A DNA stretch of 48,846 nt from Candidatus Zixiibacteriota bacterium (GCA_014730175.1 WJIR01000223.1:1-48846), one strand, 5' to 3'. Shown: positions 15,701 through 40,700, counted from the first letter of the stretch. Made by a program: numbers and translations. Notes: generated by a model not told the origin, from the letters alone.

Positions 15701-15987
15701 ATGACGATGTGGAAACTCTGCCCTCAAGGACGGAACTAATGGGTAACTTCCCGAATCCGTTTAATCCGACCACAACCTTCAGCTATGCCCTGGCCGATGA
15801 CGCTAATGTGACTTTGGAGGTCTACAACCTTATGGGGCGCAAGGTCGCAACGGTATTCGAAGGTCATCAGGAAGCCGGTTACAGGACGGTTCAGTGGAAC
15901 GCTGGAAATTATTCCTCAGGCGTTTACTTCTACAAACTGACCGTTGACGGACAGGTCTTCACCAAGCGTATGACCTTGCTGAAGTAA
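12727..15987 (+). CDS. Secreted metallopeptidase (M36/fungalysin-like) with C-terminal T9SS-type sorting domain
   Basis: Signal peptide; FTP-like N-terminal region; zinc motif VVHHEYGHHL with downstream GEGMSD; C-terminal GNFPNPFNPTTTFSYALADDANVTLEVYNLMGRKVATVFEGHQEAGYRTVQWNAGNYSSGVYFYKLTVDGQVFTKRMTLLK. Confidence 0.88.
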   Translation: MKRFSMPASLVLLAILLLSLNSTGFTMQADTKGEALYELKVNYPGVSTYQTGKRISSLWGITFGYGANPQATAENFRMNYSEIFGVAPSELKPHSLLPDQRHTQPVMYNRDNDSYKFTLVYYSQYKEDVPVFRSELRLLVRNDANYPLVLARSALKDLKDFRMPSGVTLNKGLAETAAKSFNPNLDYFEEPSLVVWAGTNEEVAEPRLAMEIIGDNSMPATDDYEKWLLLVDALTGEILYSEDMILNVDVDGNVSGRATDNFAAEICDDEVSFGMPYSRVYIDGGNTAYADEFGDFTIPNGGSSPVDVYSHMRGDWFRVYNDAGAEVELDTTVTPPGPANFLHNSSNSSEYVRAQVNGYLHANVVRDFTLTYNPSYPGLQQSEFPVNVNINSSCNAYYDYQSINFYRSGGGCPNTAFGTVVHHEYGHHLVAMAGSGQGQYGEGMSDCMGVMITDDPGLAYGFFGNCNEPLRNADNTKQYPCSGGIHDCGQLLSGCLWDTRNALMTNYPNTYMDILANLAVNAILMHTGDLITPQITIDYLTLDDDNGNIYDGTPHYNEICSGFGAHSMDCPDLQLIAFDYPNGRPDLFDPDGGTTIRVEVSGITGSPEPGTGMMYYNDGTGWEQQSMDVVSPNVYDAVFPPFECGLVIEYYFSAETTDGFVVYDPSGAPGTTYSGVAAHGMITVFEDDFSTDQGWTGLGGQGEWTIGQCMGGNGDDYYGGPDPSEDHSPTSDDRALGNDMTAGDGDYENYLGTTYWVTSPNIDCSGVYALQLSFWQWLGVERDWYDEAYFQAYNGSSWITLWENGDETIDEASWSEQNYDLTGIADDNPNFKIRFGIGPTDGSWQYCGWNIDDVQIVAYTCEPSADITVDMIPDNPPIEVQPGGYFTYTGVLNNNTGDPQSSDVWVMLDVPGYGSYGPVQQFNNVPLGPNQTLTYEGARQNIPGFAPLGEYDYIAYCGDYPDSPVDSASFTFTVVQGIGGDADGWTLNGWFNDDVETLPSRTELMGNFPNPFNPTTTFSYALADDANVTLEVYNLMGRKVATVFEGHQEAGYRTVQWNAGNYSSGVYFYKLTVDGQVFTKRMTLLK

Positions 15988-16019
15988 GTAGCCATTCAAC
16001 AGGAGTATCAAACTTCGGA

Positions 16020-16050
16020 GGGGCGAGTTTTGCACTCGCCCCTTTTCTTG
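16020..16050 (+). terminator. Rho-independent terminator after the M36-like gene
   Basis: ggggcgag-ttttgca-ctcgcccc followed by ttttctt. Confidence 0.85.
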
Positions 16051-16056
16051 TATGGA

Positions 16057-16220
16057 CCAATCCCGATAATTCATAAAAACCACGAATCCGTAGCCGAAGG
16101 CTTGTCTTTCGTGGATTTAAAACTAACAGACCATTGACAGATTGGAATTGCGGATTCAGAGAAACGCCGGAAGCGCAAGGCTTCCACTACCGATAGTAAA
16201 ATTTATGATTAATACAGGTT
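16057..16220. repeat. MITE-like intergenic element, copy C
   Basis: ccaatcccgataattcataaaa...tccgtagccgaaggcttgtctttcg...ggaagcgcaaggcttccactaccgat...tttatgattaatacaggtt. Confidence 0.65.
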
Positions 16221-16267
16221 AGAACCATAAATATGGGGAGTTGGGTTTCAAAATCGACCGATTAACC

Positions 16268-16300
16268 AAAAAGGCTGTCCGAGTTTGGACAGCCTTTTTT
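16268..16300 (-). terminator. Terminator for groEL (possibly bidirectional)
   Basis: aaaaaggctgtcc-gagttt-ggacagcctttttt, 31 bp beyond the groEL stop; T-tracts on both strands. Confidence 0.85.
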
Positions 16301-16330
16301 CCAATAAGTATGTATTTATTTCCGGAGGAA

Positions 16331-17974
<1,644 letters not shown>

Positions 17975-17991
17975 TTATCTCCTCCCCAATA

Positions 17992-18279
17992 TTATTCAAT
18001 GATTGCTAAAATGTCAGATTCGCGCATTATCAGGTACTCGGTGTCATCAACCGTAACTTCGCTACCGGAATACTTACCATACAGCACCTTGTTGCCGGAT
18101 TTCACCTGCATCTCCACCAGTTTCCCGTCGTCGGAAACCCGACCCGGTCCAACCGCCACGATTTCGCCTTCCTGAGGCCTTTCTTTGGCGGTGTCGGGAA
18201 TGATTATTGATCCCTTTTTAGTTTCTTTTTCCTCTAAAGGTCTGATTAATACCCTATCAGCAAGAGGTTTTACGTTCAT
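17992..18279 (-). CDS. groES: Co-chaperonin GroES
   Basis: [47 protein letters not shown]...[11 protein letters not shown]; immediately upstream of groEL. Confidence 0.99.
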
Positions 18280-18346
18280 ACCTTCCTCCTTATTTGGTTA
18301 CTCATTTCTTGTATGTTGTTTATATTTAATAGCTTACGAAGCTCGC

Positions 18347-18373
18347 TTAGCACTCGTTAAGATAGAGTGCTAA
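18347..18373. promoter_or_regulatory. CIRCE operator (HrcA-binding inverted repeat) upstream of groESL
   Basis: Exact match to TTAGCACTC-N9-GAGTGCTAA (ttagcactc gttaagata gagtgctaa), 67 bp upstream of the groES start. Confidence 0.96.
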
Positions 18374-18474
18374 CATTTGAACGCAGAAATTAATTGGGAG
18401 TTCCAGATTTGTCAAGAAATTTTTTGATTTTTAGCATTTTAATGTGTTTAATAGACTTAAAACGGAGGAAGCTT

Positions 18475-18987
18475 ATGAAATTCGGAAAGATAGCATTGTA
18501 CTTTGGTTTATTGATAACAGCTTGTATGCTTACCAGTTCATGCTGTATATTAGGTGGTGTATGTAAAACACCGAAACCCGACGGAAACAGTACTGATACA
18601 GGCTCGGAGATTCTACGGGCTTTGGACGTGCGAATATTAAGCCGTTCAATGGGTTATGCGCTGGGATCCCCGTTTGATATGAAGATGCGGATTACGAACA
18701 AATCGGATGAAGAAATCGAATTGGAATTTCCGGAAGGCTATGTTTTTGATTTCTACATTTATCAAAAAAATGAGTTGGTGTATCGATATTCCGAGGACGA
18801 ACGGTATCCCACTGGCTTGAAGGAAATTGCGCTTGCGCCGGGTGAGTCCAGGGATTTTGGGGGGATTTGGCTCTGTAAAGATAACGATGGCGTCTGGGTA
18901 AGGGGAGGGCGTTATGAGATGATAGGAATCATTAACACCGATCCACCGGTTTTGTCCAATATACTGCAATTTGGATTGGCGGATTAG
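18475..18987 (+). CDS. Putative lipoprotein with a BsuPI-like (proteinase inhibitor-like) domain
   Basis: Start ATG at 18475 follows an SD (ggagg). Cys-containing signal segment LLITACMLTSSC. SPFDMKMRITNKSDEEIELEFPEGYVFDFYIYQKNELVYRYSEDERYPTGLKEIALAPGES resembles BsuPI. Confidence 0.65.
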   Translation: MKFGKIALYFGLLITACMLTSSCCILGGVCKTPKPDGNSTDTGSEILRALDVRILSRSMGYALGSPFDMKMRITNKSDEEIELEFPEGYVFDFYIYQKNELVYRYSEDERYPTGLKEIALAPGESRDFGGIWLCKDNDGVWVRGGRYEMIGIINTDPPVLSNILQFGLAD

Positions 18988-19144
18988 AATATACCAGGTT
19001 GAATGTGGGGCTTGATGTAAGGTCCTGGAAGGATGCGCTTTGTCGTGTCCCTTGGTCACGCCGGAGCGTGCCCCCTCCAGGCTCATGTCTACGGCTGGGG
19101 GTGGCATGTTTAGTCCCGCCGAAGGCGGGGATAAGCATGCTGAT

Positions 19145-19328
19145 GGATACAAAACATGCTTATCTCTCCGCCTGCGGCTTCGAGCTAAGCATGCCACCCT
19201 TGTGGGAGCTTCAAACACACCCCGTCTTAGCCCCGCGTACCGCGGGACGAATCCACCCTCTCGAGAGGGGAATAAATGTCGGACAGGAATAAGCCTGAGG
19301 CTTACAAGTGTCCGACCTCCCGATGTCT
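19145..19328. repeat. Dispersed GC-rich intergenic repeat, copy 1
   Basis: gatacaaaacatgcttatctc...gcctgcggcttcgag...acacaccccgtctt...ccgcggga...gaggggaat...caggaataa...cttacaagt.tccgacctc matches 44304-44512 in the same motif order. Confidence 0.75.
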
Positions 19329-19561
19329 TTCGGAGGGTGAGTGTTTGGCTCCGTCGGCGCCGGAGCGCCGACCGGCGGAGCAATCCGCCGGGTGGGGGCA
19401 CACTACAGCTCGGAATCGAGGGCACCGACGGCACTTTTAAGCGGCATTGGAGGACGAATGCCTTGCACGGACACAGGGGCAACATGGGCCAGGATTTTGA
19501 CTAGACCATGTCGCCCTCGTTAATCCAACTCATCTAATGTTTAGAGATGAACAACCAATTA

Positions 19562-21205
19562 CTACTTCAGCAAATGCATTTTCTTTGCTATAATCTGATC
19601 GCCAGCCTGGAGCCGGTAGAAATATACGCCGCTCGAATGATGAGAAGCATCCCAGGAAACGGTATGCTGTCCGGCTGCGAGGTTGCTATTAACCAGTGTC
19701 GCGACCCTCTGTCCTAACAGATTATGAATCTCAAGCTTGACATTTTTAGTATCGGAAAGGTTGAATGTGATATTCGTTTGGGCATTGAACGGATTGGGGT
19801 AATTGCCCAGAAGTTCAAATCCCGCAGGATTGCCCTCAACCGAATTCCATCCGCCTTCCACATTCCATACGTTACCGGAACTTTCTGACCGGTCGCGTCC
19901 GGCAACAACTGTGAACTGGAAAGAATCGGCAGCATATATATTATCGGGGTAGTCACCGGCATTCGAGATATAATCGTAGGCTCCTGTTGGCGCAAAATTA
20001 GGCACGATTTGATTAAAGTGCGCATTTATAATCTGACCTGAGTTAAGATAGATATCCTGAAAAGTCCGCAATGGTCCATATTCGCCGTAGCCAGGAACGA
20101 TCAACATGAGCCAAACATCGGTCGTTATCGGATCGGCTCCGCCATTAGTAAGAAATCCCGTTAATCCGAATTGACCTCCCGGCGGTACTTCGATCGGATA
20201 ATCATCCGGAATCATCGAGATCTCAATATCGGGTGAAGATTCCTCGAACCAGCTCGATAAAACCTCATTAGTCCAGCATTGTATACGCCCCCACTGCTGA
20301 GGCGTTAAATCAGTCCAGCATGGGCTTCCGCCCAGAGTACCGTAACTCATGTAGTTTTCAGGCGAAGTGTCACCCCAGGGAACACCGCTGCAGGGATCTG
20401 TACCGCCCGGATCGTAGCAGTAATAATTGATAGGTGTTGGCGGCGTATCCGAACAGAGATCGCCTGTAATGTCAGCATCCTGACCATCCGCCTGCTCCCA
20501 GCACTCCCCGCATTGCGGTACTTCGCTGACTCCGTGGTGCGTGTGCCACAATCCGATATTGTGTCCAATTTCATGAACCAAAACATTGTCATGGAATGGT
20601 GTAGGGTAAACATGTCCCTCGCTTAAGACAACACCACCCTGATCGGAAAGAGGAAGACGGTAATCATCCCAGGGGAATGTACCGAAAGATCCACCGGATG
20701 TGCCGGTAATATATATATTCATTTGAGATTCCGGATTAAGAGCATAAGCTCTCTTCATCTCTTCCGCATCGGTATAGTAACGGAACTGGGTAGAATTTAC
20801 GAATCTATAATCATAGACAAATTGAATTCTAACCTGCAAGTATTCCTCATTGAGATGATTTACCATATCTTCCAGCGTAGCTTCATCAGTAGCGCAATTA
20901 CTTCCATCGTTCTCGCAGAAGATATGAAAATACAGGCGGATATAAGTAATCGGGTCCTCGGGATCAGGTATTGCCGCATCGCGAACATCGGGTTCATCGC
21001 AGGAACCATTATAGCAATCGTGATACAACATCCCGTATTTCTCTATCTGTCCTTTCTTATAGATTTCCCAAGTTTCGCAGAACCCGTCCACATCAGCAAA
21101 TGCGGTTGATGAAGCGAGGGATATTGCGAAAAGCAGGAATGCCGCAAATGTCAGCATCACTGCATTACTGGAGATTAGAGTTTTCTCTCTTGGATTGAGC
21201 TTCAT
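19562..21205 (-). CDS. Secreted metzincin metallopeptidase (M43/pappalysin-like) with C-terminal T9SS-type sorting domain
   Basis: VLVHEIGHNIGLWHTHHG (HExxHxxGxxH), Met-turn-like PENYMSYG, C-terminal LLGNYPNPFNAQTNITFNLSDTKNVKLEIHNLLGQRVATLV...GVYFYRLQAGDQIIAKKMHLLK. Confidence 0.88.
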   Translation of the reverse strand: MKLNPREKTLISSNAVMLTFAAFLLFAISLASSTAFADVDGFCETWEIYKKGQIEKYGMLYHDCYNGSCDEPDVRDAAIPDPEDPITYIRLYFHIFCENDGSNCATDEATLEDMVNHLNEEYLQVRIQFVYDYRFVNSTQFRYYTDAEEMKRAYALNPESQMNIYITGTSGGSFGTFPWDDYRLPLSDQGGVVLSEGHVYPTPFHDNVLVHEIGHNIGLWHTHHGVSEVPQCGECWEQADGQDADITGDLCSDTPPTPINYYCYDPGGTDPCSGVPWGDTSPENYMSYGTLGGSPCWTDLTPQQWGRIQCWTNEVLSSWFEESSPDIEISMIPDDYPIEVPPGGQFGLTGFLTNGGADPITTDVWLMLIVPGYGEYGPLRTFQDIYLNSGQIINAHFNQIVPNFAPTGAYDYISNAGDYPDNIYAADSFQFTVVAGRDRSESSGNVWNVEGGWNSVEGNPAGFELLGNYPNPFNAQTNITFNLSDTKNVKLEIHNLLGQRVATLVNSNLAAGQHTVSWDASHHSSGVYFYRLQAGDQIIAKKMHLLK

Positions 21206-22079
21206 GTTTTTTTTCCTCCCGGAATTGAGTTTTAATTTAGGCTGTTATGCAATTTTTCTGTTAGTCGATTTTAAGATACCTTTGCTTGGTTCAGTTGGAA
21301 GCATAATCTATATTTATGAACTACCCATAATAATGGACGAACTCGGGTAGCGAGTAGCGATTTAGGATAGTTTATTAAGCGTATGTTTTAATGTTAACTA
21401 AAACCGTAAGGCATAACCTGCGGTTCCCATCTTTTAGCGTAGAAATTGAATGTTCAGGGACGATCTCCGAGGGCGTTTTGAACTCAAATTCCGGTTCATT
21501 GCAACGCCAGAATACAATATAATTAGAAACAATGAAATTCCAAGTAATTTAATGAACAACCCTACTGAGCAAGATATCGTAAAAAGGAAGGATTTCTCAA
21601 TCAATATTTATCGATATGAATGATAAAAATACTGTTGTGCCTTTAGCATGAGATGGGTTTGTCCTGAGGGCATAACACGGAAATTTAATTCCTCATATTC
21701 AATAATCACTTATAGACAGAGGATCAGCTAAGCGAGCTTTCCGAAGCTGAAAAGCGGTTTGCAAACCTTAGATGGTTAATCAGCAGGCATTTGTCGATTA
21801 GTCGGAAGGCATAACTCGCCAATAAGTAACAGCTTACAAAAATATTATAGTTGTTTTAATTACGTAGAATCATATACGCATTCAATAGGTTTTTTACTCG
21901 TATTGACAAAATTTAAAACCATCGTATATAAGCTTATCCGGTTTAAAGTACACACCGATGGAATAATGATGCTAAGCTGTTAGATATCAGGTGTAATTGT
22001 CACCATTTGATAGAATCTTGAAACTCATCTGAACCGGAAGAAAAACTTAATGTAATAATTTTAAAAATGGAGGATGGAA

Positions 22080-22382
22080 ATGAACTTTAACACTCAAAAA
22101 ATCTTAGGTTTCACTTTGAAGGTTGGGGTGATAACGTTAACTGTCGCTATAATTGCCTGGTTTGGACTCTCCATTGGCAACCAGGACAGATCCCATACCG
22201 ACCTGAAACAGTATCCGATAGTGATACTAACTTTGGAAGATGATCCTGATTGCCCGTACGATTATGAACCGCGCCGTTATTTCAGCGGCGATGAATACCT
22301 GAGAGTGGAAGTGGGAGATACGGTTTACAGCCCGCAAGGATATGCTCATGTAGTGCTGGAGAAGACCGTGCTTTATGAGTAG
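22080..22382 (+). CDS. Small hypothetical protein with one predicted TM/signal segment
   Basis: ATG at 22080 preceded by ggagg. KILGFTLKVGVITLTVAIIAWFGLSIG hydrophobic segment; followed by a terminator. Confidence 0.55.
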   Translation: MNFNTQKILGFTLKVGVITLTVAIIAWFGLSIGNQDRSHTDLKQYPIVILTLEDDPDCPYDYEPRRYFSGDEYLRVEVGDTVYSPQGYAHVVLEKTVLYE

Positions 22383-22445
22383 CACGATACTTGCTTGTGA
22401 TGACGGTTTTGGGAAAAATCAACATTTCTCTACGGAACGCTATCA

Positions 22446-22483
22446 CAAAAGACTGCCGGAGTTGTATCTCCGGCAGTTTTTCT
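22446..22483. terminator. Bidirectional terminator between convergent genes
   Basis: aaaagactgccggag-ttgtat-ctccggcagttttt; lies between a + ORF ending at 22382 and a - ORF ending at 22506. Confidence 0.85.
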
Positions 22484-22505
22484 TAAGCCCCAAAAAATGC
22501 AATTA

Positions 22506-24485
22506 CTACTTTAGTAATGTCATCCGTTTGGTGAGAGCTTTGCCTCCTGCGGTTAGCTTGTAGAAGTAGATACCGGATGACTGACTTGAAGCGTCCCAGA
22601 CTACGCTATGCTGTCCGGCATCCATGTTACCGTCAACCAATGTTGCCACTTTCTGCCCCATGATGTTGTAAACCTCAAGGGCAACGTTACCGGCTTCCGG
22701 TAACTCGTAGGTTATGGTCGTGGTAGCGTTAAACGGATTAGGGAAGCTACCGATCAAAGCATATTCGCCTGGCACCTCAGCGGAATCAAAGCCACCCTCA
22801 AGCATCCATTCATTAGCGCCATCAGCGGTACGAACGCCGGTTACGGTGAACGGAAAGCAGAAGGAATCATCCTTCACGCTCGGGCGATCACCGCAATAGC
22901 AACAGTACTGATACGTGCCTTGAGGCGCATAGCCCGGCACATTTTGCCACATGTGGGCGCTTATATGCTGTCCCGGATTAATTGGACGATTGGCGAAGCT
23001 AAATTGTTGATAAAAATTCCCGAATCCCCAAACGCCGCCCCAGATATCGGTAACAATGGTCTCGTTACACGGATTCTCGATATGTCCGGTTACGCCGAAT
23101 CTGCCGCCCGGCGGCACAACAACCGGATCATCGTCAGGAACCATCCATATATTGCAGACGCATTCTCCGGCATCGGCGTATAACCGGAATTCATGATATG
23201 CATCCGATTCCGTATCGAAAACGAAGTAGTTAAAGAACTCCTGATCGACCATGTATTGGATTGAGAACCGCATATCATACTCGGTAAAAGCCTCGATTCC
23301 AGGACCGGTGGAATACCACCTTACACCTCCCAGAGGACGAGGATTACCCCGAGGATCATAATAGACGAATTCAGAATACCACGGTCCCGTTCCCGTGGGA
23401 GCGTCAAGTTCCGGAGGTATTCCGGGATCTACTTCAACTTCCTCAGGGAATATAATCAGTTCCGTTAAATTAATAACATCATCGGGACCCTGATCATAAT
23501 TTCCGATGAAGGAAACCATGGGACCTTTGCCGAGTCCGAATTCGATCTCGCCATCATCACAATTGCTCCAGGTATATTCCTGTCCGCCAAATTCCTCCTC
23601 CTGCTCCGGCTCATTATATTCGAAATCATCGATAACGAAGAAATCCCCGGAGTTGTGGTAAATGACATAAGCGATACCATCAGCATTTACCTCAATGTAG
23701 TCGGAATATGTGTAGTTACTCGGCCCCTGTGCACTTGCAATTAAGGTGCCACCAGCATCGTAGGCTTCCAGATAGAAATCGTAGTACGAAGTGTACCACA
23801 ATCCTACATGATCGGTAGGATTGTCGAAGTTCACCTGCACAAAGGACTCATCGATGGAAGCAAGGACCTGATGGCCTGAGTGCGGAGGATAACCGGTATC
23901 GTTATATCCATAGACCAGGTTTTCGAGAATAACCGCCGCAGGTCCGAAATACAGTCCCGGATAAAATCCATCTAAGTTCTGGTTACCGCCGAAATACCAA
24001 TATTCCTCCGGTACGTCTTCAAAATCAAGAATGACAAGACCGTCTGAATTGCCCTTCGCCGTTCGCTGTAAGACGACCACCTCCCAATCCGGCTGCGGGT
24101 CTAACACGAATGTGACTATTAATGAGTCATTCGAAGGACGGTTATTAATCACACCTCCAATAAGAGCCGATTGCGATGCTCCCCCGTTATAATATCCTTT
24201 ACCGTCAATTGCGGTCATGCGCCAGGCATTAGGATGATTCCAGGTGAATGTTACACCCTTCGTGTTGTAGGATACATAATAATTCGTACTTGAATACCAC
24301 ACAGTATCGCCCATGGCAAGACTGACAGGACCGGGAGCTTGCCAGGGAGCATTCGGAGGCTGAGTATTGCCCGGGTCAGTTGTTGCCATATAGTCCGGCG
24401 CCCAGGCTTGTGCGCTACTGAATCCCCAAAATACCATGGTAATTAATCCAAGTAATATCATTAAATATTTATTTGTGTACATCAC
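22506..24485 (-). CDS. Secreted protein with T9SS-type C-terminal sorting domain
   Basis: Signal peptide YLMILLGLITMVFWGFSSAQA; C-terminal LIGSFPNPFNATTTITYELPEAGNVALEVYNIMGQKVATLVDGNMDAGQHSVVWDASSQSSGIYFYKLTAGGKALTKRMTLLK. Confidence 0.85.
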   Translation of the reverse strand: MMYTNKYLMILLGLITMVFWGFSSAQAWAPDYMATTDPGNTQPPNAPWQAPGPVSLAMGDTVWYSSTNYYVSYNTKGVTFTWNHPNAWRMTAIDGKGYYNGGASQSALIGGVINNRPSNDSLIVTFVLDPQPDWEVVVLQRTAKGNSDGLVILDFEDVPEEYWYFGGNQNLDGFYPGLYFGPAAVILENLVYGYNDTGYPPHSGHQVLASIDESFVQVNFDNPTDHVGLWYTSYYDFYLEAYDAGGTLIASAQGPSNYTYSDYIEVNADGIAYVIYHNSGDFFVIDDFEYNEPEQEEEFGGQEYTWSNCDDGEIEFGLGKGPMVSFIGNYDQGPDDVINLTELIIFPEEVEVDPGIPPELDAPTGTGPWYSEFVYYDPRGNPRPLGGVRWYSTGPGIEAFTEYDMRFSIQYMVDQEFFNYFVFDTESDAYHEFRLYADAGECVCNIWMVPDDDPVVVPPGGRFGVTGHIENPCNETIVTDIWGGVWGFGNFYQQFSFANRPINPGQHISAHMWQNVPGYAPQGTYQYCCYCGDRPSVKDDSFCFPFTVTGVRTADGANEWMLEGGFDSAEVPGEYALIGSFPNPFNATTTITYELPEAGNVALEVYNIMGQKVATLVDGNMDAGQHSVVWDASSQSSGIYFYKLTAGGKALTKRMTLLK

Positions 24486-24877
24486 TATCTCCTAAGATTA
24501 TTTTTATATATTTACAAATACTATATTCTTTCCTTTTAAACTTCAAAGATTAGGTCTCGGGGGGCCGCGCAGACGAATAATGCGAGGGATAAAAAATGAT
24601 ATGTGTAAATATAGGCTCATTGCTTTTGAATGCCTTATCGATACATTCTTCTGCTTTTTAAAGACTTACAACTATTCTGAGGATTTCTGGTGAATGATCG
24701 TGGGATTGAGTACATCCTCAATGGTAAGACTAATTTAATTCAATATTGTTCCTTATTTAATTCAACATTCTATAGTTATTAAAGGACTCAATATATAATC
24801 CTGATAAATTAATAAACCTTACAACTATTATATATTAATTATGAATTACAGTATTAACATAAGAGGGATTTAAAGAA

Positions 24878-24902
24878 TCGGGCTGGAATTAATCCAGCCC
24901 GA
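24878..24902 (-). terminator. Putative terminator downstream of the 24963-27173 gene
   Basis: cgggctgg-aattaa-tccagcccg hairpin; a modest T-rich tail (attctttaaat) on the minus strand. Confidence 0.5.
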
Positions 24903-24962
24903 AGTTTGAATGCTCGTGGAATCAATAATTTGCGGCTTCACATTCGCTGGGTTATCGATTTC

Positions 24963-27173
24963 TTACTTAAGTAATGTCATTCGCTTCGTAGCAATCTCTC
25001 CTCCTGCTTCTAATTTATAGAGATATATTCCGGAGGAATACTTAGATCCATCCCAGGTTATCTGGTGGCAACCCGCAGATTTACTTTCATTTACTAACGT
25101 AGCCACTTTCTGTCCCAGTAAATTGAAGACTTCGAGATTCACAAAGTTTGCATCAGGTAATTCATAAGTAATGACGGTGGTAGCGTTAAATGGATTGGGA
25201 TATGCATCCATCAGCATGAATGAGGATGGAATCTCCGCATCGCTGAAACCGCCTTCGAATACCCATTCATCAGCGCCACCTTCAATACGAGCCCCCGCGA
25301 CAGTGAACGGGAAACAGCATTCATACTCAATAAGGTCGGGATAGTCACCGCTGTAGGCGCAATAATCGTATGTTCCGGTAGGAACATAACCGGGGATTCT
25401 CTGCCAGAAATGTCCGGAAATAGTGTCCCCTGGATTCAACGTGAGATTCAGGAAGCGGAATTGCGTATAGAAATTACCCTGATATAGAACGCCTACCCAA
25501 ACATCTGTTGTCTTTTGTTGGCCGGATAAATTGGTAAGATAACCGGTACCACCAAATCTTCCGCCGGGCGGGACTATAACCGGGTCATCATCCGGAATCA
25601 TCCAGATCTCGCCGGTGCAATTAGATGAATGCAAACAGAATGCGAAATCATACGCCTCGCCATAGAGAAGCTCTTCAATGGGTTTCCATTCCCCATCCCA
25701 ATTATAATAGGCCTGCGAACCGGTTATTGGAAGAGTGGTTCCCGAATAGCTGTAACCGAAGGAAACCTGACTGACAGGACGCATACCAATCCAGTAGGTG
25801 CCGGCAGGTAAAGAAATGTCTAAACCCCTTATGTAATAGACGAATTGATTGAAATTCCAAAGATCCTCTCCAACATCAAATCTAAAATTAGGAACATCAA
25901 ACATTTCCACAATCGTGTCTCCCGGAGCGCCGTTGTTATCTGCTAATATTATTATATCATCGGTATTGCGGAAATCGAAGGCATCATCTGTAATGGCCCA
26001 CCAGGACATGCCGGAGATAGTCGTCTCTTCACTAAGAACGAAATCGTCGACCACCCAGGCTTCACTTTCAGTACCGTAATATCTACAGCAGCCTACGGCA
26101 TAATCCCATGTAGGTTCGCCGTTGTGCCAGACAGTCACCCCCTCCGGGCATGGTTCCGGATATGGCGGAGGTTCTATAATCTCATGGTCGAATATTTGAG
26201 TCATTATGCTGGCGCAATCACCCGGCTGTAATTTCTGCACGAGATAATGACCATATATATGTCCACCAATATAAGCTCCGTAGGTAATCACATCACAAGA
26301 CCATGACATCCCCGGCTCAAGTGCAACGACATCCGTCAATAGCGTATCGAACGGAAAGACGCTATCGATAGGAATTTCATCAAAGCTGGGACGGAACCTA
26401 AAATCGAGTAGTTCGATAGTTCCAGTTGTATCATCATTCTGGAAAGTAACGCGATGGCGATAATAATCATCACCGATATGCTTGGGCCAGTCGACCGTCC
26501 ATCCGAGATTAGGAGCTGCTTTTATGCTCTTGGCGCCTTCCCAATCGATATCCGCTGTTCTCAGAGTGTTCCATCCAGTCAACCACAGGCAGGCATAGAC
26601 ATCAACCTGACCACCTCGTGGGATAACTCCGTCCGTACAATGTACTCTAACCGCATGCTGGCCGTTATCGCCGTTACTGTGATACGGTTCAGGTTGATTG
26701 GTGCGCTCCGAGGTGACCTCGTAGAAGCCATCCGGTGGAGGAGATACGCAAACCATCCAACCATTTACATCGATCCCATCCTCCTTCTGCCATAGAGTGA
26801 AATTTAATTCATAAGCCAGGTTTACTTCATCATTACAGAACGTTAAATGTGATTCAACCAAAACTCCCTCCTGAGTACCTCCGGTAGTCACCACATAATT
26901 ATCCGGGCAGTCATCGCAAATCGATTCGATTAGTCCTCCTGCCGGAATATCAATACCTCCTTTCTTTGATTGGTGTGAAATCCTCTCGTAATCACCTAAC
27001 TTGATTACAGGGTTTTGATTAGCGCTTGCCGAAATTGTACCAACTAACGCTAAAAGCGTCACCATTAATAGATTGATTGTGATGCGGTACATGATTGCAC
27101 CTCCTGATTCTAAAGATTTAAAGTTAGTAGCTTCCGCCGATGCCGTGGACAGTTTCCATTCGGCATACTGCAT
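24963..27173 (-). CDS. Secreted protein with T9SS-type C-terminal sorting domain
   Basis: Probable start at internal MYRITINLLMVTLLALVGTISASA (signal peptide). C-terminal LMDAYPNPFNATTVITYELPDANFVNLEVFNLLGQKVATLVNESKSAGCHQITWDGSKYSSGIYLYKLEAGGEIATKRMTLLK. Confidence 0.85.
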   Translation of the reverse strand: MQYAEWKLSTASAEATNFKSLESGGAIMYRITINLLMVTLLALVGTISASANQNPVIKLGDYERISHQSKKGGIDIPAGGLIESICDDCPDNYVVTTGGTQEGVLVESHLTFCNDEVNLAYELNFTLWQKEDGIDVNGWMVCVSPPPDGFYEVTSERTNQPEPYHSNGDNGQHAVRVHCTDGVIPRGGQVDVYACLWLTGWNTLRTADIDWEGAKSIKAAPNLGWTVDWPKHIGDDYYRHRVTFQNDDTTGTIELLDFRFRPSFDEIPIDSVFPFDTLLTDVVALEPGMSWSCDVITYGAYIGGHIYGHYLVQKLQPGDCASIMTQIFDHEIIEPPPYPEPCPEGVTVWHNGEPTWDYAVGCCRYYGTESEAWVVDDFVLSEETTISGMSWWAITDDAFDFRNTDDIIILADNNGAPGDTIVEMFDVPNFRFDVGEDLWNFNQFVYYIRGLDISLPAGTYWIGMRPVSQVSFGYSYSGTTLPITGSQAYYNWDGEWKPIEELLYGEAYDFAFCLHSSNCTGEIWMIPDDDPVIVPPGGRFGGTGYLTNLSGQQKTTDVWVGVLYQGNFYTQFRFLNLTLNPGDTISGHFWQRIPGYVPTGTYDYCAYSGDYPDLIEYECCFPFTVAGARIEGGADEWVFEGGFSDAEIPSSFMLMDAYPNPFNATTVITYELPDANFVNLEVFNLLGQKVATLVNESKSAGCHQITWDGSKYSSGIYLYKLEAGGEIATKRMTLLK

Positions 27174-27451
27174 AGCGTTACATTAGATTTATTTGATTTT
27201 CACAATTTCCTTATTTCAGGTCTGCATTCAACATTGCATCAATTTCAGCTTTATCAGCCGCTATTGATATATCCCGTAAAATTTTAATATCTTACATTGA
27301 TGGTGATAATGCTAAGATGGCTTAGTTATATAAGGTTTGCTAAGATTCGAGAGTAATTAGAACGGGCTGCCAGTTGCAGCCCGTAAGTAATCCGGATGGT
27401 AGATTCAGTTGAATTGATCGGCAATCTAATTATATGCCGATTGAGAGCGAT

Positions 27452-29926
27452 TTATTTCATAAATGTCACTCGCTTAACTACTACATTGTCCTCAACCTGC
27501 AATCTGTAGAAATAAATTCCCGAAGGTACATTAGAAGCCTGCCAGATGACACTGTGATATCCGGCTTGCTTATATTGATTTACCAAGGTCCCGACATGCT
27601 GGCCACGGATATTGTAAACCGCCAGGGATACCTCACCCGCTTCCGGAATACTGAATTTGATACTGGTTTCATTGTTGAAGGGATTCGGATAAGCATCATA
27701 TAGAATTATGTTTCTCGGTAAGACGTCATTGCCGAGTTCGTTAGTGTCTTTAAGGAATCCGCCTTCGAAGGACCAATCCTCATATCCGCCATGGAGACGC
27801 GGAGCGATCACGGTGAATGGGAAATATGACGAATCACAAGGATTATCGGGACGGTCTCCGCTGTAGGCGATATAGGTATAGGTTCCAAGAGGAGCGAATC
27901 CCGGCACATTCTGCCACCCGTGGGCGGTTAAGGTCTGTCCCGGAGCTAACGGTATATTATTGTAAGCAAACTGCTGATAGAAGGAGCCCATATACTTAAC
28001 CCCACCCCAGACATCGGTTACCATGGGATCGGCAAGGGGATTTGAAATAATCCCGGTGAATCCGAATCTGTCCCCGGGCGGTACCATCACAGGGGGATCA
28101 TCCGGAATCATGTCAACATCGGAGCAGAGGTTTTCGCGCCCGACTATGTAAAAGGATACGTCGAACTGATATCCGAAAACCACTTCGCAGGGCGTCCATT
28201 CATCATATCCGAAAAATTCAGACCTGAAATAGCTCTGTTCCATCGTTAACGGCAGATGAGTTACCCAAAAATTACGTCCGATTTCATATCTGTCCGCAAC
28301 GATCGTCCCGTTATCCCGATTGACGGGACGAAAACCAAACCAATATGTCCCGGGATCAAGGACTATAGTTGTATCGATAGTGTGGATGCAATAGGCGAAC
28401 AGACTATCATTTCCGACGCCTCCTGTATAAGTGCGTGTATTGGGAACATCCTTGAGATAATATAAAGTATCAGCAGGCATATTACCGACGCTACTCAGAA
28501 TAATAATATCATCAACATCCTGAAATACGTAGTTCGAGTCGGTTTTCGCCCACCATTTCATACCGGTGATATTCACTCTTTTGTTGAATGTGACATCATC
28601 CACTACCCAGGCATCCAGTGTGTCGATTTGAGCATTATTTAGAGGTGTGGCTCCTGAGGGTGGATTTTCGGGAACTATGTGACGGTCGCAAATCAGGAAA
28701 TCTTCATAGGTAGGTCCGCCGTTGTTCCAGATTATGCTATCCTGAGGATTCCAGCAGTAATCACACCAAAAACCGGTAGATAAATCATAGGGGAGGGGAA
28801 CCATATTTCCGATAGGATCCTCCTGGAACGCAAACCCATCGCCCTCGAACGAATTCCCCCATAGAAAGGCGCATCCGTCGCCATATTCGCTGGTACTCTG
28901 GATCGATATCCACCCCTCGTTCAGCTCAACGTGTGGTATGAAGACGATATCCCATTCGATCAACTCATAGATTCCACCGTATAATATACCGGTAGCGGTC
29001 CTGTACGGTAACAGATCGAAATAACTCTCTAACAGAGCGCCAGGTACTCCTCCGGCATCTTCATAAAATTCAACCAGGAATTGGATGGGATATTCATCGC
29101 ATTCAGTCCAGCCTCCATCATAATGGGCATCAATACCCCAGAACTGCATACTGCTAATGAAATCAAGAGTAGGACAATAAAAATTCTCAAATACTTTGTA
29201 CGGACCGACTTCCACGTCACTTGTTGTGAAAGTCCAGTTACCTTCCGGGGATGTCACTTCTTGCTGGCAACCCGGTAACGGTACAAATGAGTCGTTAACA
29301 TCTATGGTGTAATTTCCTTCAGCGCCATTGAAACCATCAACCACAATGAAATAAATGTTACCCCCAATGACCTCGAGCTCAGTTATTTCCGAGACGTAGC
29401 CGGGACAAGCATCATCATTGCAGATAATCAGGTTTGCAGGGGCGTTCTCATAGACGTAGAGCTTCGTATCGAAATCGGAGTTAGCGCATAGCGTGATATC
29501 GATTACCCGATCATGCGTTGGTTCGTAGGAATACACCACATCCGGCGAACCGACATCAGTATATGGACACGCTTCTACATAATCATCATTATAACCCACC
29601 GTCGTCCCTAAATCAGTGAAAGGAATCTGGGGTATTGGATAGGCATCAGTAGTAGTATCTCCTCCCTGACTGATAACGCCGGGATCCGGTTCAGACATTG
29701 TTTTCACGGTGGCGAATTTCTTATCGGTAGAAATTCCTTTATCTGTCTGCTGGAATCCTATCTCATTTTGTGAGATAGCAGGCTCTCCCATTGCGATTCC
29801 AAAGCTAATTAGTAGCACAGGGATAATTGTGCTTAATATCATTTTATTCATAGTTCTCTCCCTCGGAAGAATTTTATGAGGTATACATTTATCGAAATAA
29901 AATATCACTTTTCTGCAAAGCTGCAA
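27452..29926 (-). CDS. Secreted protein with PPC-like N-terminal domain and T9SS-type C-terminal sorting domain
   Basis: Probable start at internal MNKMILSTIIPVLLISFGIAMG. PDVVYSYEPTHDRVIDITLCANSDFDTKLYVYENAP...NYTIDVND resembles prepeptidase C-terminal domains. C-terminal LYDAYPNPFNNETSIKFSIPEAGEVSLAVYNIRGQHVGTLV...GIYFYRLQVEDNVVVKRVTFMK. Confidence 0.85.
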   Translation of the reverse strand: MQLCRKVIFYFDKCIPHKILPRERTMNKMILSTIIPVLLISFGIAMGEPAISQNEIGFQQTDKGISTDKKFATVKTMSEPDPGVISQGGDTTTDAYPIPQIPFTDLGTTVGYNDDYVEACPYTDVGSPDVVYSYEPTHDRVIDITLCANSDFDTKLYVYENAPANLIICNDDACPGYVSEITELEVIGGNIYFIVVDGFNGAEGNYTIDVNDSFVPLPGCQQEVTSPEGNWTFTTSDVEVGPYKVFENFYCPTLDFISSMQFWGIDAHYDGGWTECDEYPIQFLVEFYEDAGGVPGALLESYFDLLPYRTATGILYGGIYELIEWDIVFIPHVELNEGWISIQSTSEYGDGCAFLWGNSFEGDGFAFQEDPIGNMVPLPYDLSTGFWCDYCWNPQDSIIWNNGGPTYEDFLICDRHIVPENPPSGATPLNNAQIDTLDAWVVDDVTFNKRVNITGMKWWAKTDSNYVFQDVDDIIILSSVGNMPADTLYYLKDVPNTRTYTGGVGNDSLFAYCIHTIDTTIVLDPGTYWFGFRPVNRDNGTIVADRYEIGRNFWVTHLPLTMEQSYFRSEFFGYDEWTPCEVVFGYQFDVSFYIVGRENLCSDVDMIPDDPPVMVPPGDRFGFTGIISNPLADPMVTDVWGGVKYMGSFYQQFAYNNIPLAPGQTLTAHGWQNVPGFAPLGTYTYIAYSGDRPDNPCDSSYFPFTVIAPRLHGGYEDWSFEGGFLKDTNELGNDVLPRNIILYDAYPNPFNNETSIKFSIPEAGEVSLAVYNIRGQHVGTLVNQYKQAGYHSVIWQASNVPSGIYFYRLQVEDNVVVKRVTFMK

Positions 29927-35148: not shown

Positions 35149-37050
35149 TTAATCTTGTAATGCGGAGAGTTTCTCCCGTATTAATTTGCCGGGGATAGCG
35201 CCGCGGAGTCGTCGCATGGCTTCCCCCATCAGAAAACGCTCCCTCTTTTCGGGATCTCTCAGTTGATTCTCTATAGTAATAATTTCGCTGAGGATTGAAT
35301 CGAGTTGCTCTTCGCTGACTGCAGGGACTATTTCATCTATTGCTTCCTGAGGGTCGTAATCTTTCACGCAAATAGCCTTCAGTATATCCAGCGTACTTTC
35401 GCGATGGAATATACCGTCACCGAAAAGTTGCGCTAAAATGAGCAACCTATCGTCAGACAGGTTAATGGCGCCAAAATCCCTGCGATGTAGATAAGTAAAA
35501 TATTCCACAATAACCTGAGCAGCCCACTTTGGATTTCCACTTATCCCGGCCATACGTAGGAAAATCCTGTATCTGGGATTGGTTACGAGATGGTCGATAA
35601 GATAATCAGGCAAACCCATCTCCTTCATGGTAACCCGCCGATCCCAGGGGAGATCCGGCACTATCTCCCTTAAGCTTTCGACTCGTTCTATGTCTATCTC
35701 TATGGGAGGATGATCGGTGTCGGGATACATTCTATCGGGTCCGGGGAGGAGGCGTTCGAAATCGGAATAACGTTCGTTGAGAGCCATATTGCGAGTTTCG
35801 GGCGGGACTCCATGGATGGCTTCCCGACAGCGGATCGCTATTTCTTCTAATGCAGTGTTCACATCTTGACGGGGACCCCAGGTAATAATAGTGGCATCAC
35901 CATCCTCTGCATCGAGGGAGCGACGTATGTCTTCCCATTCTTTATCCGGTATTCCCAATGACATTCTGTTCATGCGATGAGCGATATTGGGCATTTTATC
36001 CAAACATGCTATCACCCGAACACGTCCGGCGATCTCATCTGCAAAAATCCTCTCAGGGAATATATATTTCTCCATCAATCCCCGGAAGCCTTTGATCACA
36101 ATAGCGCTAACCACTCCGCCTTGCTCCACCGCTTGATTGCCGACGAATTCAGGTGAGCGTGCGAGATTTGCTGTCGCATCCGTTGTGGAATACGCGTAAT
36201 TACTGTCGCTGATACCACGCTCCTTTATTTCATCACGCAGATTCAGCAACGCTTTTTGCCTGAGGGCTTCAAAATGCGTTAATGCGGGGATGTGACTAAT
36301 CTTATCCACTCCTTTAATTTCAACACGCGATCCTCCCGCAATGGAAACATTAACATCCTGACGTGCTGCACCGATCCCCCGCCTGACCAACCCGGAGATT
36401 CGATTGGTTTCCGCCAAAAGCCAGGTAACCTCAAAAGCCTCCTGAGGAGAATATAATTCCGCATCGGTTATGACCTCAACTAAAGGGATCGACAATCTGT
36501 CTGTCCGAAAAATAACGTTATGGCCGACGTTATCAACTTCGCGGCAGGAATCCTCCTCGATATTCACCTGCGGGATTTTGATCCTACGGTACTTATATGG
36601 AATCCAGCCATCAGTTCCGATAACCGTAGTGCGTTGAAAACCGGTGGGGATGGAACCATCAAGGTATTGCTTGCGGGATATATGAGCTTCGTCAACAATG
36701 TTGCACTGAAAAAGCAGGGCGAGTCTTATCCCTATCTCAACAGCCTGCTGATTTATTGGAAACGGCGGAGAATCATCGAGCTCATAGGTGCATACACGGT
36801 TGTTCAGGATTTCGTATATTATCTCTTTGCGGGTTTTCTTCTCCATCAGGGCAGTGGGATCGTATTCTCCCATCTCCGAGAGCGTGGGGCGCATGTGGCG
36901 CAGCACCCGTGCATCGGGAGGATCATCGACCAGCCCCACCGGACAATGACAGAATAGTTTTTGTTTAGTATCGAGCTGCTGATGAATCTCAATACCACAA
37001 CGGAATCCGATTCCGGCATAATCGATGTCGTTGGTTTTCCACAAACTCAT
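35149..37050 (-). CDS. gatE: Glutamyl-tRNA(Gln) amidotransferase subunit E (archaeal-type)
   Basis: FRCGIEIHQQLDTKQKLFCHCP, HISRKQYLDGSIPTGFQRT, VNIEEDSCREV, RQDVNVSIAGGSRVEIKGV, an inserted GAD-like segment (FADEIAGRVRVIACLDKMPNIAHRM) and a YqeY/GatB-like C-terminus. Confidence 0.95.
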   Translation of the reverse strand: MSLWKTNDIDYAGIGFRCGIEIHQQLDTKQKLFCHCPVGLVDDPPDARVLRHMRPTLSEMGEYDPTALMEKKTRKEIIYEILNNRVCTYELDDSPPFPINQQAVEIGIRLALLFQCNIVDEAHISRKQYLDGSIPTGFQRTTVIGTDGWIPYKYRRIKIPQVNIEEDSCREVDNVGHNVIFRTDRLSIPLVEVITDAELYSPQEAFEVTWLLAETNRISGLVRRGIGAARQDVNVSIAGGSRVEIKGVDKISHIPALTHFEALRQKALLNLRDEIKERGISDSNYAYSTTDATANLARSPEFVGNQAVEQGGVVSAIVIKGFRGLMEKYIFPERIFADEIAGRVRVIACLDKMPNIAHRMNRMSLGIPDKEWEDIRRSLDAEDGDATIITWGPRQDVNTALEEIAIRCREAIHGVPPETRNMALNERYSDFERLLPGPDRMYPDTDHPPIEIDIERVESLREIVPDLPWDRRVTMKEMGLPDYLIDHLVTNPRYRIFLRMAGISGNPKWAAQVIVEYFTYLHRRDFGAINLSDDRLLILAQLFGDGIFHRESTLDILKAICVKDYDPQEAIDEIVPAVSEEQLDSILSEIITIENQLRDPEKRERFLMGEAMRRLRGAIPGKLIREKLSALQD

Positions 37051-38441
37051 AGCATATAATCCAATAAGAAATCTTTAACTTCTGGTAATCCCCCTTGTAG
37101 CACCAGATAACTGTCGGGTCTTTCTCTTTCCGTTATCTCGCCATTAATAGGAGTCAACATCAGCTTCTTAACCTCTTCTCTGTCTCTGGTCTGCCCCAAT
37201 GCCCAGGCGAGTTTCATATAAGCAGTCTCCGGCAGCATATTGGCTAAAGGTACGATTCCACAGTCCATGAGATAACGACCATTATCATAAACAAACATCT
37301 GCACAAATCCCCAGAGAGTTTGAACCGTCATATATATGTGTACACCTTTACCGATAGCCCAGCGGATAACATTATAGAGGGGGCGATTGATATGACCAAG
37401 TCCGGTGCCTGCGATCACGATACCTTCGTAACCGGCTTCAACTATGGAGCGGATAAGGTTTTCCTGCATGTTGGGGTAGTAATAAAGTATCATAACTTTA
37501 TCGCTGAATGTGGGGATTATTTTGAATTCCTCGTTTGGCGTCGACCGGGGACGATAGTCGCTTCTTAGAGGATTTACTCCCTTCTGAACATCAACAGTTG
37601 CTAACGGTATATCACCGAGCGTACGAAAAGTACTGCGGTACGATGAATGCATTTTACGCACACGTGTCCCACGATGCAGGAGTCCGTACTGGTCTGAAGT
37701 CGGTCCAAACATGCAAACCATAACCTCGGCGATCGGACCGGTGGCGGCTATGGCGGCGTTTATGAGATTGCGGGCGGCATCGGATGAAGGACGATCGCTG
37801 GAACGCTGTGAACCGGCTAATACGATCGGTACCGGAGGATTCTGAATCATGAATGTTAATATCGAAGCTGTGTGATGCATTGTGTCGGTACCATGACCGA
37901 TAATAATGCCATCCGCGCCGTTGTTTATTTCTTTGTAGATGTTTTCGGCGAGTGTTATATATTGCTCCGGTCCCATATCCTCGGAAAAAATCCCGAAGAG
38001 CTTTTTAGTTTTCAAGTTACAAATATCAGCTAATTCGGGAACGGCGCCGAAAAGTTCGCCGGGGGAGAAGGCCGGTATGACCGCTCCGGTGGAATAGTCC
38101 AGACGCGACGCAATGGTACCGCCGGTGCCGAACAGAAATATGTTCGGTTTACTTTCATCGTACGGAAATTCCTGCTCGCGTATTCCGTAATGACCCTCCT
38201 GCCGACCGAGGTATTCTATGGATTTGATACGTGCGGCTTTTACTCCGATATTGTAACCGCTGTCGAGTTTGATAACAATATGCAGCGAATCCGCCATACT
38301 ATTGCGGGGTAATAAAACGCCTTCATAATCGCCGGATTCCGATTCGACCTTGATTCTATCCCAGACGCCGATATTGAATTTAGTTAAGAGTTCCAAGCTA
38401 ACACCACGATAACCGGTCGTGGATTTTTCGCCCGTAGTCAA
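37047..38441 (-). CDS. gatD: Glutamyl-tRNA(Gln) amidotransferase subunit D (asparaginase-like)
   Basis: IFLFGTGGTIASRLDYSTGAVIPAFSPGEL, GIIIGHGTDTMHHTASILTFMI, IVLAGSQRSSDRPSSDAARNLINAA plus an N-terminal extension. TTG start; 4-bp overlap with gatE. Confidence 0.95.
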   Translation of the reverse strand: MTTGEKSTTGYRGVSLELLTKFNIGVWDRIKVESESGDYEGVLLPRNSMADSLHIVIKLDSGYNIGVKAARIKSIEYLGRQEGHYGIREQEFPYDESKPNIFLFGTGGTIASRLDYSTGAVIPAFSPGELFGAVPELADICNLKTKKLFGIFSEDMGPEQYITLAENIYKEINNGADGIIIGHGTDTMHHTASILTFMIQNPPVPIVLAGSQRSSDRPSSDAARNLINAAIAATGPIAEVMVCMFGPTSDQYGLLHRGTRVRKMHSSYRSTFRTLGDIPLATVDVQKGVNPLRSDYRPRSTPNEEFKIIPTFSDKVMILYYYPNMQENLIRSIVEAGYEGIVIAGTGLGHINRPLYNVIRWAIGKGVHIYMTVQTLWGFVQMFVYDNGRYLMDCGIVPLANMLPETAYMKLAWALGQTRDREEVKKLMLTPINGEITERERPDSYLVLQGGLPEVKDFLLDYML

Positions 38442-38544
38442 TTGTACACCTGCTCGTTTAACACTATATAATGAGGGTGGTATATCAGAAATACCACCCT
38501 TCCAATCAAAATTCGAAAATGTTAATAAATTACCCGATTACGGT

Positions 38545-39675
38545 CTACTGGAGTACGTAGATCTTTTTCTCAGCGCACATATCTCTGAGAATTTTGGGCC
38601 ATACGGTGACGCTGCACTCACCGAGATGGGCTTTCCTTAATAGATACATATATGTACGCGATTGTCCGATTCCGCCGCCAACCGAAAGTGGAATATCGTT
38701 ATTCATTATCGCCTTATGGTACGGGAAGTCCAGAAAATCGAGCTGTCCGGTTATCTCAAGCTGCTGCTTTAGAGTTTCCGGAGTTACCCTGATCCCCATT
38801 GATGTCAACTCATGACGTCTTCTGGTGACGGGATTCCAGACCAGGATGTCGCCGTTAAGCCCATGCATCAGGCGGCCGTTTTTCTCTATGGTTTCGGTTA
38901 CCCAATCGTCATAGTCCGCGGCGCGCATTTCATGCGGGTATCCATCTTCCAAGACCCAGCCGATACCGATTATGAATACTGCCGGATATTTCTGCAGGAT
39001 TTCGGTCTCCCTCTGCTTACGCGGTAAATCCGGGAACATTTCCAAAATCTCTTCTGCATGCAGGAAAGTGAGTTCCTCGGGGATGTCGGGATACTTGTCG
39101 GTTTTCAGTTTCGGGAAGTTTTCCTGGGCATGAATACCGGCTCCCCGGATAACTTTCCATATCTTCTGTACGATATCCTTCAGGAAATCAAGGTTACGGT
39201 CCTCTTTGACCATTACTTTTTCCCAATCCCACTGGTCAACATAGGAGCTGTGATCGTGGTCAAGGAAATAGTCTTTGCGGACAGCTCTCATGTCCGTATA
39301 AAGCCCTTCGCCGGTCTCCATCCCGAACTGCTTGAGTGCCATCCGTTTCCATTTAGTAGCTGCTTGAACCACCTGTGCATCTATCGGATGTTTATCATGG
39401 TCATTGGAAATATGGAATTCGATAGGAGTTCTGGAACCGTCGCGATCCAGATAATCGTTCACTCCGCTTTCGCGGTCAACGATCAATGGACATTCGACGC
39501 GAATAAGGTTCAGCTCCTTGCACAGATTGTCCTCAATGTAATCCTTAACGCACTTAATAGCTTCTTGCGTTTCCTTGGGATTGAGCAGCGGTTCGTAGTC
39601 AGTCGGTAATATCTTCTCGATATCCTCGTAATTACCTATGCCGGGACCGGCAAGATCAGCTTTTTTATCTGCCAT
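38545..39675 (-). CDS. asnA: Aspartate--ammonia ligase (asparagine synthetase A)
   Basis: [105 protein letters not shown]. Confidence 0.95.
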
Positions 39676-39734: not shown

Positions 39735-40700
39735 TCACAATTTTTCTGTCAAAATCGGTAATATCTCCAGAGCGTTACCGACTATTCCCCAGGTGGCAAC
39801 CTTGAAAATCGGCGCATCCGGATCCTTATTAATCGCTACGATATACTTGGAAGACTGCATCCCTGCCAGATGCTGGATTGCGCCGGAAATACCGCAAGCG
39901 ATATACAGCTTAGGATTAACAGTTTTTCCGGTCTGCCCGACCTGACGTTTGTACGGTACCCATTCCGCATCCACAATGGCGCGGGATGCGCCGGCAGCCG
40001 CTCCCAGCTTTTTAGCCAGATCCTCAACCAATTTGTAGTTATCGGCTTCCTTCAGTCCCCTTCCGCCGGAAACGATTATATCCGCTTCGGTTAAAGGAAC
40101 CTCCCCTCCTCCTTCCGAAACCTTCTCAACCACCTTCGCCTTGCTTTCGTACTTGGAGGAATCAAAGGCGAAATCGGCAGCCTCGGCTTCACGGGACAGT
40201 CCCTCTTCCGGAACGAATGCTTTGGGTCTTAGTGTAATAATCTTCACGTTTTCAGTATTGAAGCCGAATTTGAGGATAGCATTTCCACCGTAACCGGGGT
40301 GTTCGACTACGATCTTGTCGCCGTCAAAATTAATTGCGGTGGCATCGGGAATCAGGGCGCCATTGCTGAGCGCAGCCAATCTGCCAAAAAGGGCTTTGCC
40401 GTAGAAAGTTGCGCTTCCGATGACGTGATTAATTGACTCCTGAGATATCATATCGGCGAGAACAGCGCCATATATTTCATCATTATAATGCTTAAGCACG
40501 CTATCCTGGCAGACTAACACTCGATCCGCGCCGCCTTTGCCGCATTCGGAAGCCAGCGCCGAAACGGCATCGCCAAGCAACGCTGCAATTACCTTGGAAC
40601 CGTACTCATCGGCTATTCTACGAGCCTCGGAAAGACATTCGAAACTAAGAGGCGAGAGTTGCCCCTCTTTTACCTCACAAAATACTAATACGTTAGACAC
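39735..40700 (-). CDS. etfA: Electron transfer flavoprotein alpha subunit
   Basis: [92 protein letters not shown]. Confidence 0.96.

Follow-up and report, generated by a model that had tools for sequence, protein, structure and literature searches.

A bacterial branch of GatDE in a Zixibacteria genome that also encodes glutaminyl-tRNA synthetase

The locus and its host genome

The window analysed here is a stretch of 48,846 nucleotides (WJIR01000223.1, contig C171 of the source genome) from a draft metagenome assembly of a Zixibacteria bacterium (GCA_014730175.1; 3.59 Mb, 94% complete). It carries the genes for GatD and GatE, the subunits of a Glu-tRNA(Gln) amidotransferase which reviews of 2021–2022 describe as found only in archaea. 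GatDE proves to be widespread in bacteria, where it usually accompanies glutaminyl-tRNA synthetase (GlnRS) or the amidotransferase GatCAB.

Transcription at the locus runs from asnA through gatD to gatE (Table 1). An earlier note on this DNA had reported the three genes as co-directional, with a 4-bp overlap of gatD and gatE, and the gene calls agree, the gatD stop overlapping the gatE start in the motif ATGA. A gap of 103 bp separates asnA from gatD. Because it contains a 10-bp hairpin, which the terminator scan did not pick up, a common transcript of asnA with gatDE is doubtful and asnA may be transcribed separately.

Table 1. Genes and hairpin at the gatDE locus, in window coordinates
Feature	Coordinates	Strand	Remarks
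gatE, Glu-tRNA(Gln) amidotransferase subunit E	35149..37050	-	633 aa, ATG start, full-length open frame
gatD, subunit D, asparaginase-like glutaminase with GatD_N	37047..38441	-	464 aa, TTG start
Hairpin in the asnA/gatD gap	38474..38500	-	10-bp perfect; centroid fold; terminator-like without a clear T run
asnA, aspartate--ammonia ligase	38545..39675	-	376 aa, ATG start; local neighbour
etfA-like gene, electron transfer flavoprotein alpha	39735..40700	-	PF00766/PF01012

A draft of 328 contigs with 3.5% contamination could in principle hold archaeal DNA misplaced in a bacterial bin during assembly or binning, but this is extremely improbable for the present locus. The order etfA–gatD–gatE, without asnA, is common to three genomes of the same family (G001, G002 and G003), and the window also encodes groEL, uvrB and several type IX secretion tails; moreover, bacterial GatE forms a clade of its own which is found in whole-chromosome assemblies. 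The locus is therefore resident in a bacterial genome and not mis-binned, as the earlier note had held.

The note had also proposed that asnA, gatD and gatE form a self-contained unit supplying both amide residues. Such a unit is not conserved; what is conserved is gatD–gatE and, within the family, etfA–gatD–gatE. None of about 100 other fetched gatE-holding loci contains asnA, which rules it out as a member of a conserved gatDE module, and the adjacency of asnA and gatD occurs only in the source genome. Since the three same-family genomes lack asnA at this position, it is a local insertion or arrangement.

Identity of GatD and GatE

Family assignment relied on curated NCBIfam models, each with its own cut-off. 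GatE scored 449 bits against TIGR00134 (cut-off 319.6) and 508 bits against NF003107 (cut-off 456), the latter match spanning residues 7–629 of 633. GatD scored 482 bits against TIGR02153 (cut-off 324), and AsnA 300 bits against TIGR00669, barely above the cut-off of 292.8. The GatD_N domain (PF18195), which plain asparaginases do not have, was found in GatD, together with all of the catalytic residues T109, T185, D186 and K263, which are invariant across the bacteria and archaea compared. GatE comprises GatB_N, GAD and C-terminal GatB_Yqey domains. An AlphaFold2 model of GatE has a mean predicted local distance difference test score (pLDDT) of 86, C-terminal domain included, and its best matches in the PDB are the two archaeal GatE structures, 1ZQ1 and 2D6F, with GatB next. 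By every sequence test made, the locus proteins are members of the GatDE enzyme family. The claim of an archaeal-type GatDE in a bacterium thus holds as regards the family, on which scores, domains, catalytic residues and fold agree, although the system is widespread in bacteria and not peculiar to this organism.

GatB, of the bacterial GatCAB enzyme, shares its catalytic fold with GatE and belongs to the same reaction class. GatE differs in having the GAD insertion and in its partner, which is GatD rather than GatA and GatC, and the two proteins are 21–26% identical.

Distribution and phylogeny of bacterial GatDE

A scan with a GatE alignment, taking one genome per species, matched at least 588 stretches, of which 573 were confirmed relatives, and the best 80 were retained. 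With one exception, these best 80 of at least 588 are labelled bacteria, and 21 named bacterial phyla are represented among them by record titles, albeit that titles of metagenome bins can err. Four whole-chromosome assemblies carry GatDE (CP070718, CP054675, CP070631 and CP070707). In other genomes, 63 of 80 gatE loci include gatD within the fetched stretch, and a cross-phylum scan of gatE neighbours found none that recurs except gatD. In two genomes (G012 and G019) a stretch of about 7 kb carries gatE, then gltX, then tRNA-Gln(CUG), all on the same strand, and in a further genome (G027) gatDE adjoins glnS and gltX. The single contig of G019 holds two copies of gltX (C1:1515395 and 2816626), each adjoining its own tRNA-Gln(CUG).

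The GatE tree, with GatB as outgroup, comprised 39 rows of the bacterial clade (one of them a Thermoplasmata bin) and 14 archaeal rows, the latter drawn mainly from one phylum together with two solved structures. Bacterial GatE and the GatE of the sampled archaea are sister clades, with support of 98/95 and 100/98 respectively, and a quick tree with more rows gave the same two clades. The GatD tree agrees, though it has many long branches and is not relied on. The source GatE falls outside this archaeal clade, and the tree gives no support for recent transfer out of any archaeal lineage sampled; bacterial GatE may be nested in archaea beyond those sampled. A single acquisition of GatE in Zixibacteria was ruled out by the approximately unbiased (AU) test (p 2e-9). 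Because Zixibacterial GatE is not one clade, five label changes being needed, the tree points to repeated transfer of GatE between bacterial phyla.

In the Thermoplasmata archaeon Hel238.bin54 (L133, G043) both GatE and GatD belong to the bacterial clade. A tRNA-Gln(CUG) with A1–U72 follows gatE at a distance of about 30 bp, and the genome also has a GlnRS-like gene whose product shares 67% identity with the GlnRS of Zixibacteria. GlnRS is said to be absent from archaea; this GatDE/GlnRS set could be the result of transfer or of a mixed bin.

The archaeal enzymes of Methanothermobacter thermautotrophicus (2D6F) and Pyrococcus abyssi (1ZQ1) match the bacterial ones in having two such subunits and in their domains, catalytic residues and fold. 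The gene order of the source locus, gatD and then gatE, is also that of the archaeal loci fetched with both genes, whereas in most bacteria gatE comes before gatD (56 of the best 80 of at least 588 loci). Archaeal GatE is 29–38% identical to GatE of the source type, as against at least 40% among bacterial GatE sequences. Three features of the archaeal system are missing from the source system, namely absence of GlnRS, A1–U72 in tRNA-Gln and placement in the archaeal clade: the host instead has GlnRS, a tRNA-Gln with U1–A72 and a GatE in the separate clade.

Routes to glutaminyl-tRNA

The source genome has one gatD and one gatE. Neither gatA nor gatB was found in it, gatC not having been searched for, which supports the loss of GatCAB that the earlier note predicted. 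The note's further prediction, that GlnRS would be lost, is refuted by contig C53, which encodes a genuine GlnRS, 354 aa long to the contig end. This GlnRS scores 534 bits against TIGR00440 (cut-off 425.8) and shares 83% identity with its counterpart in G002, a genome of the same family. Three class II synthetase matches correspond, by size and score order, to the aspartyl-, lysyl- and asparaginyl-tRNA synthetases (AspRS, LysRS and AsnRS), and the expected AsnRS is thus present. A single glutamyl-tRNA synthetase (GluRS), of bacterial type, lies on contig C219; an archaeal-type GluRS accompanying GatDE was ruled out for the family.

The survey of the class covered 39 genomes, with association tests on the 34 best and GatD as the marker of GatDE. 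GatD scored above the cut-off in 19 of the 39 and GatE was detected in 16, all of which have both. In three genomes gatD was seen without a detected gatE (G016:C276, G034:C134 and G022:C254; L376, L079 and L375), which would mean either gaps in the assembly or a GatD that has no GatE partner. GatDE is combined with GlnRS in G000, G012, G017, G019, G028 and G032, with GatCAB in G001 and G020, and with both in, for example, G002, G007 and G009. The single-contig genome G019 has GlnRS and two GluRS, with gatD and gatE unlinked. Only in G003 (94% complete) is GatDE the single detected route: neither GlnRS nor GatCAB was found there, nor, by pattern search, tRNA-Gln(UUG). If real, this would be the one bacterium among those examined that depends on GatDE alone. 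GlnRS is present in 14 of 17 genomes with GatDE and 8 of 17 without (Fisher p 0.07), and GatCAB in 10 of 22 genomes with GlnRS and 10 of 12 without (p 0.07); neither difference reaches significance, and the genomes share ancestry. The pattern in this class is nevertheless not that of a GatDE which replaces GlnRS.

A wider survey took in 19 GatDE genomes from the cross-bacteria scan, beyond G003. By best match GlnRS is present in 14 of them, the four clearly GlnRS-free genomes all have GatB, and G054, in which a third match is unassigned, also has GatB. Since GlnRS and/or GatCAB occur alongside GatDE in 37 of the 38 GatDE genomes examined, bacterial GatDE usually supplements another route. The whole-chromosome assemblies CP054675 and CP070707 each encode both GlnRS and GatDE, so that the two do not exclude each other.

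The model of the earlier note, in which GatDE had replaced GlnRS and GatCAB and the asnA–gatD–gatE locus was a self-contained amide supply, would fit a source genome without GatA and GatB, and would fit G003. It is nevertheless very improbable, given the GlnRS of the source genome, the restriction of GatDE as sole detected route to 1 of 38 GatDE genomes and the lack of conservation of asnA at the locus; for the source genome it is refuted unless contig C53 is foreign.

The two kinds of tRNA-Gln

Two kinds of tRNA-Gln, CUG and UUG, occur in the class. tRNA-Gln(CUG) has U1–A72, mostly a GTCC/GGAC D stem (U11–A24), and a four-base variable loop; U11–A24 or U11–G24, with nucleotide 47 missing, was seen in 25 of 25 genes. 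The determinants of GluRS include U11–A24 and the absence of nucleotide 47 (PMC9976931). The variable loop of tRNA-Gln(UUG) is mostly of five bases. Among genomes with GlnRS, 9 of 15 have A11–U24 in this tRNA; of the 7 that lack GlnRS, none does. Because both kinds are also present in GatCAB-only and GlnRS-only relatives, they are no signature of GatDE, and a simple form of split decoding, with a special tRNA-Gln only alongside GatDE, is ruled out, both kinds being ancestral in the class.

In family f4 the GatDE genomes G015 (C106, L383) and G021 (C145, L384) have a tRNA-Gln(UUG) with A1–U72 and an altered CUG form. The GlnRS-only genomes G006 and G033 of this family have U1–A72 in tRNA-Gln(UUG), and G006 has the same altered CUG form. 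The A1–U72 change in the family is a single evolutionary event.

Probable function of GatDE beside GlnRS

From the genes, domains, catalytic residues, fold, distribution, phylogeny and co-occurrence described above we infer an activity for GatDE, its substrate, mischarging by GluRS and a use for two routes. The locus probably represents a bacterial branch of GatDE which would amidate Glu-tRNA(Gln) as a second route or clean-up beside GlnRS. GatD would free ammonia from glutamine (or asparagine), the bacterial-type GluRS would mischarge tRNA-Gln with glutamate, and GatE would activate the glutamate side chain on the tRNA and amidate it to yield Gln-tRNA(Gln). In the source genome the most plausible target among Glu-charged tRNA-Gln would be tRNA-Gln(CUG), because it keeps the identity features of GluRS. 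In favour of this reading are family scores well above the cut-offs, the retained fold and catalytic residues, the pairing of GatD with GatE, the position of gatE near gltX and tRNA-Gln(CUG) in G012 and G019 and near glnS and gltX in G027, and the coexistence with GlnRS in whole chromosomes.

Several observations weigh against this reading. The C-terminal helical and tail part of GatE has a mean pairwise identity of 21% in bacteria and 32% in archaea. We take this part of archaeal GatE, from a published complex structure, to contact the tRNA elbow; since it is far less conserved in bacteria, tRNA recognition by bacterial GatE may differ. Archaeal GatDE reads A1–U72 of tRNA-Gln (PMC9499178), whereas the source tRNA-Gln(CUG) has U1–A72, and the source gene for tRNA-Gln(UUG) is truncated where its contig stops. 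The adjacency of gltX and tRNA-Gln(CUG) also occurs in genomes without GatDE, so this linkage is not GatDE-specific. One of the three GlnRS-only relatives with a readable tRNA-Gln(CUG), G024, keeps the GluRS-like form of that tRNA, and relatives with GlnRS only live without any amidotransferase.

The two enzymes might instead divide the isoacceptors, GlnRS charging the UUG tRNA and GluRS the CUG tRNA, with amidation of the latter by GatDE. Such split decoding is possible but unlikely. It draws support from the restriction of A11–U24 in tRNA-Gln(UUG) to genomes with GlnRS and from a tRNA-Gln(CUG) which is GluRS-like and gltX-linked, with gatE nearby in one family, but the occurrence of both tRNA kinds in GatCAB-only or GlnRS-only relatives and the deviating genomes of family f4 (G015 and G021) speak against it. 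We also doubt, while allowing it some weight, that GatDE is simply redundant, making the same product on the same tRNAs as GlnRS for times when free glutamine is scarce, or as quality control on Glu-tRNA(Gln). The many combinations of the three routes within the class and an association of GatDE with GlnRS that is not negative are consistent with such a back-up or regulatory role. The catalytic part of GatE, however, has a mean pairwise identity of 64% in bacteria (55% in archaea), and the strong constraint on this part and on GatD argues for steady rather than rare use; nor was any regulatory signal found. Improbable, finally, is a changed substrate, by which bacterial GatDE would amidate another mischarged tRNA or a non-tRNA substrate and have only the fold in common with its archaeal counterpart. 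Near-constant redundancy with GlnRS or GatCAB and the fast-diverging tRNA-binding tail of GatE might suggest as much, yet the catalytic residues and fold are kept and full-length equivalog models are matched, the meaningful neighbours of gatE, where there are any, are gltX, glnS or tRNA-Gln, and the presence of AsnRS leaves no obvious alternative tRNA.

A second route or clean-up beside GlnRS has partial parallels elsewhere. We know of no role for GatDE other than with glutamine. Bdellovibrio, Deinococcus and Thermus have GlnRS and AsnRS with GatCAB (PMC4206432), and so likewise combine a direct route and an amidotransferase in one genome; there, however, the amidotransferase is tied to asparagine supply, whilst the source genome has AsnA and AsnRS. 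Helicobacter pylori (PMC7373986) and Acidithiobacillus ferrooxidans (PMC9976931) likewise use different enzymes for different tRNAs, albeit two GluRS and an amidotransferase, where the source genome has one GluRS, GlnRS and GatDE. The tRNAs charged by GluRS1 of A. ferrooxidans have an augmented D stem and lack nucleotide 47 (PMC9976931), and in this they resemble the tRNA-Gln(CUG) of the class.

Bacterial GatDE was not found in our literature searches, subscription papers and database annotations being outside their scope, and prior notice of it is possible. A widespread, separate bacterial clade contradicts the archaea-only statement of the reviews. With bacterial data, the question of whether GatDE dates from the last universal common ancestor or spread by transfer becomes testable, and a further question is posed as to why two glutaminyl-tRNA routes are kept in one cell.

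Other features of the window

The roughly 17 kb at 12727–29926 encode five large proteins that carry C-terminal sorting domains for type IX secretion. A mevalonate-pathway cluster at 6682–11029 on the minus strand includes diphosphomevalonate decarboxylase, a 768-aa fusion of HMG-CoA reductase with a GHMP kinase, and a member of the FMN_dh family, possibly an isopentenyl diphosphate isomerase of type 2.

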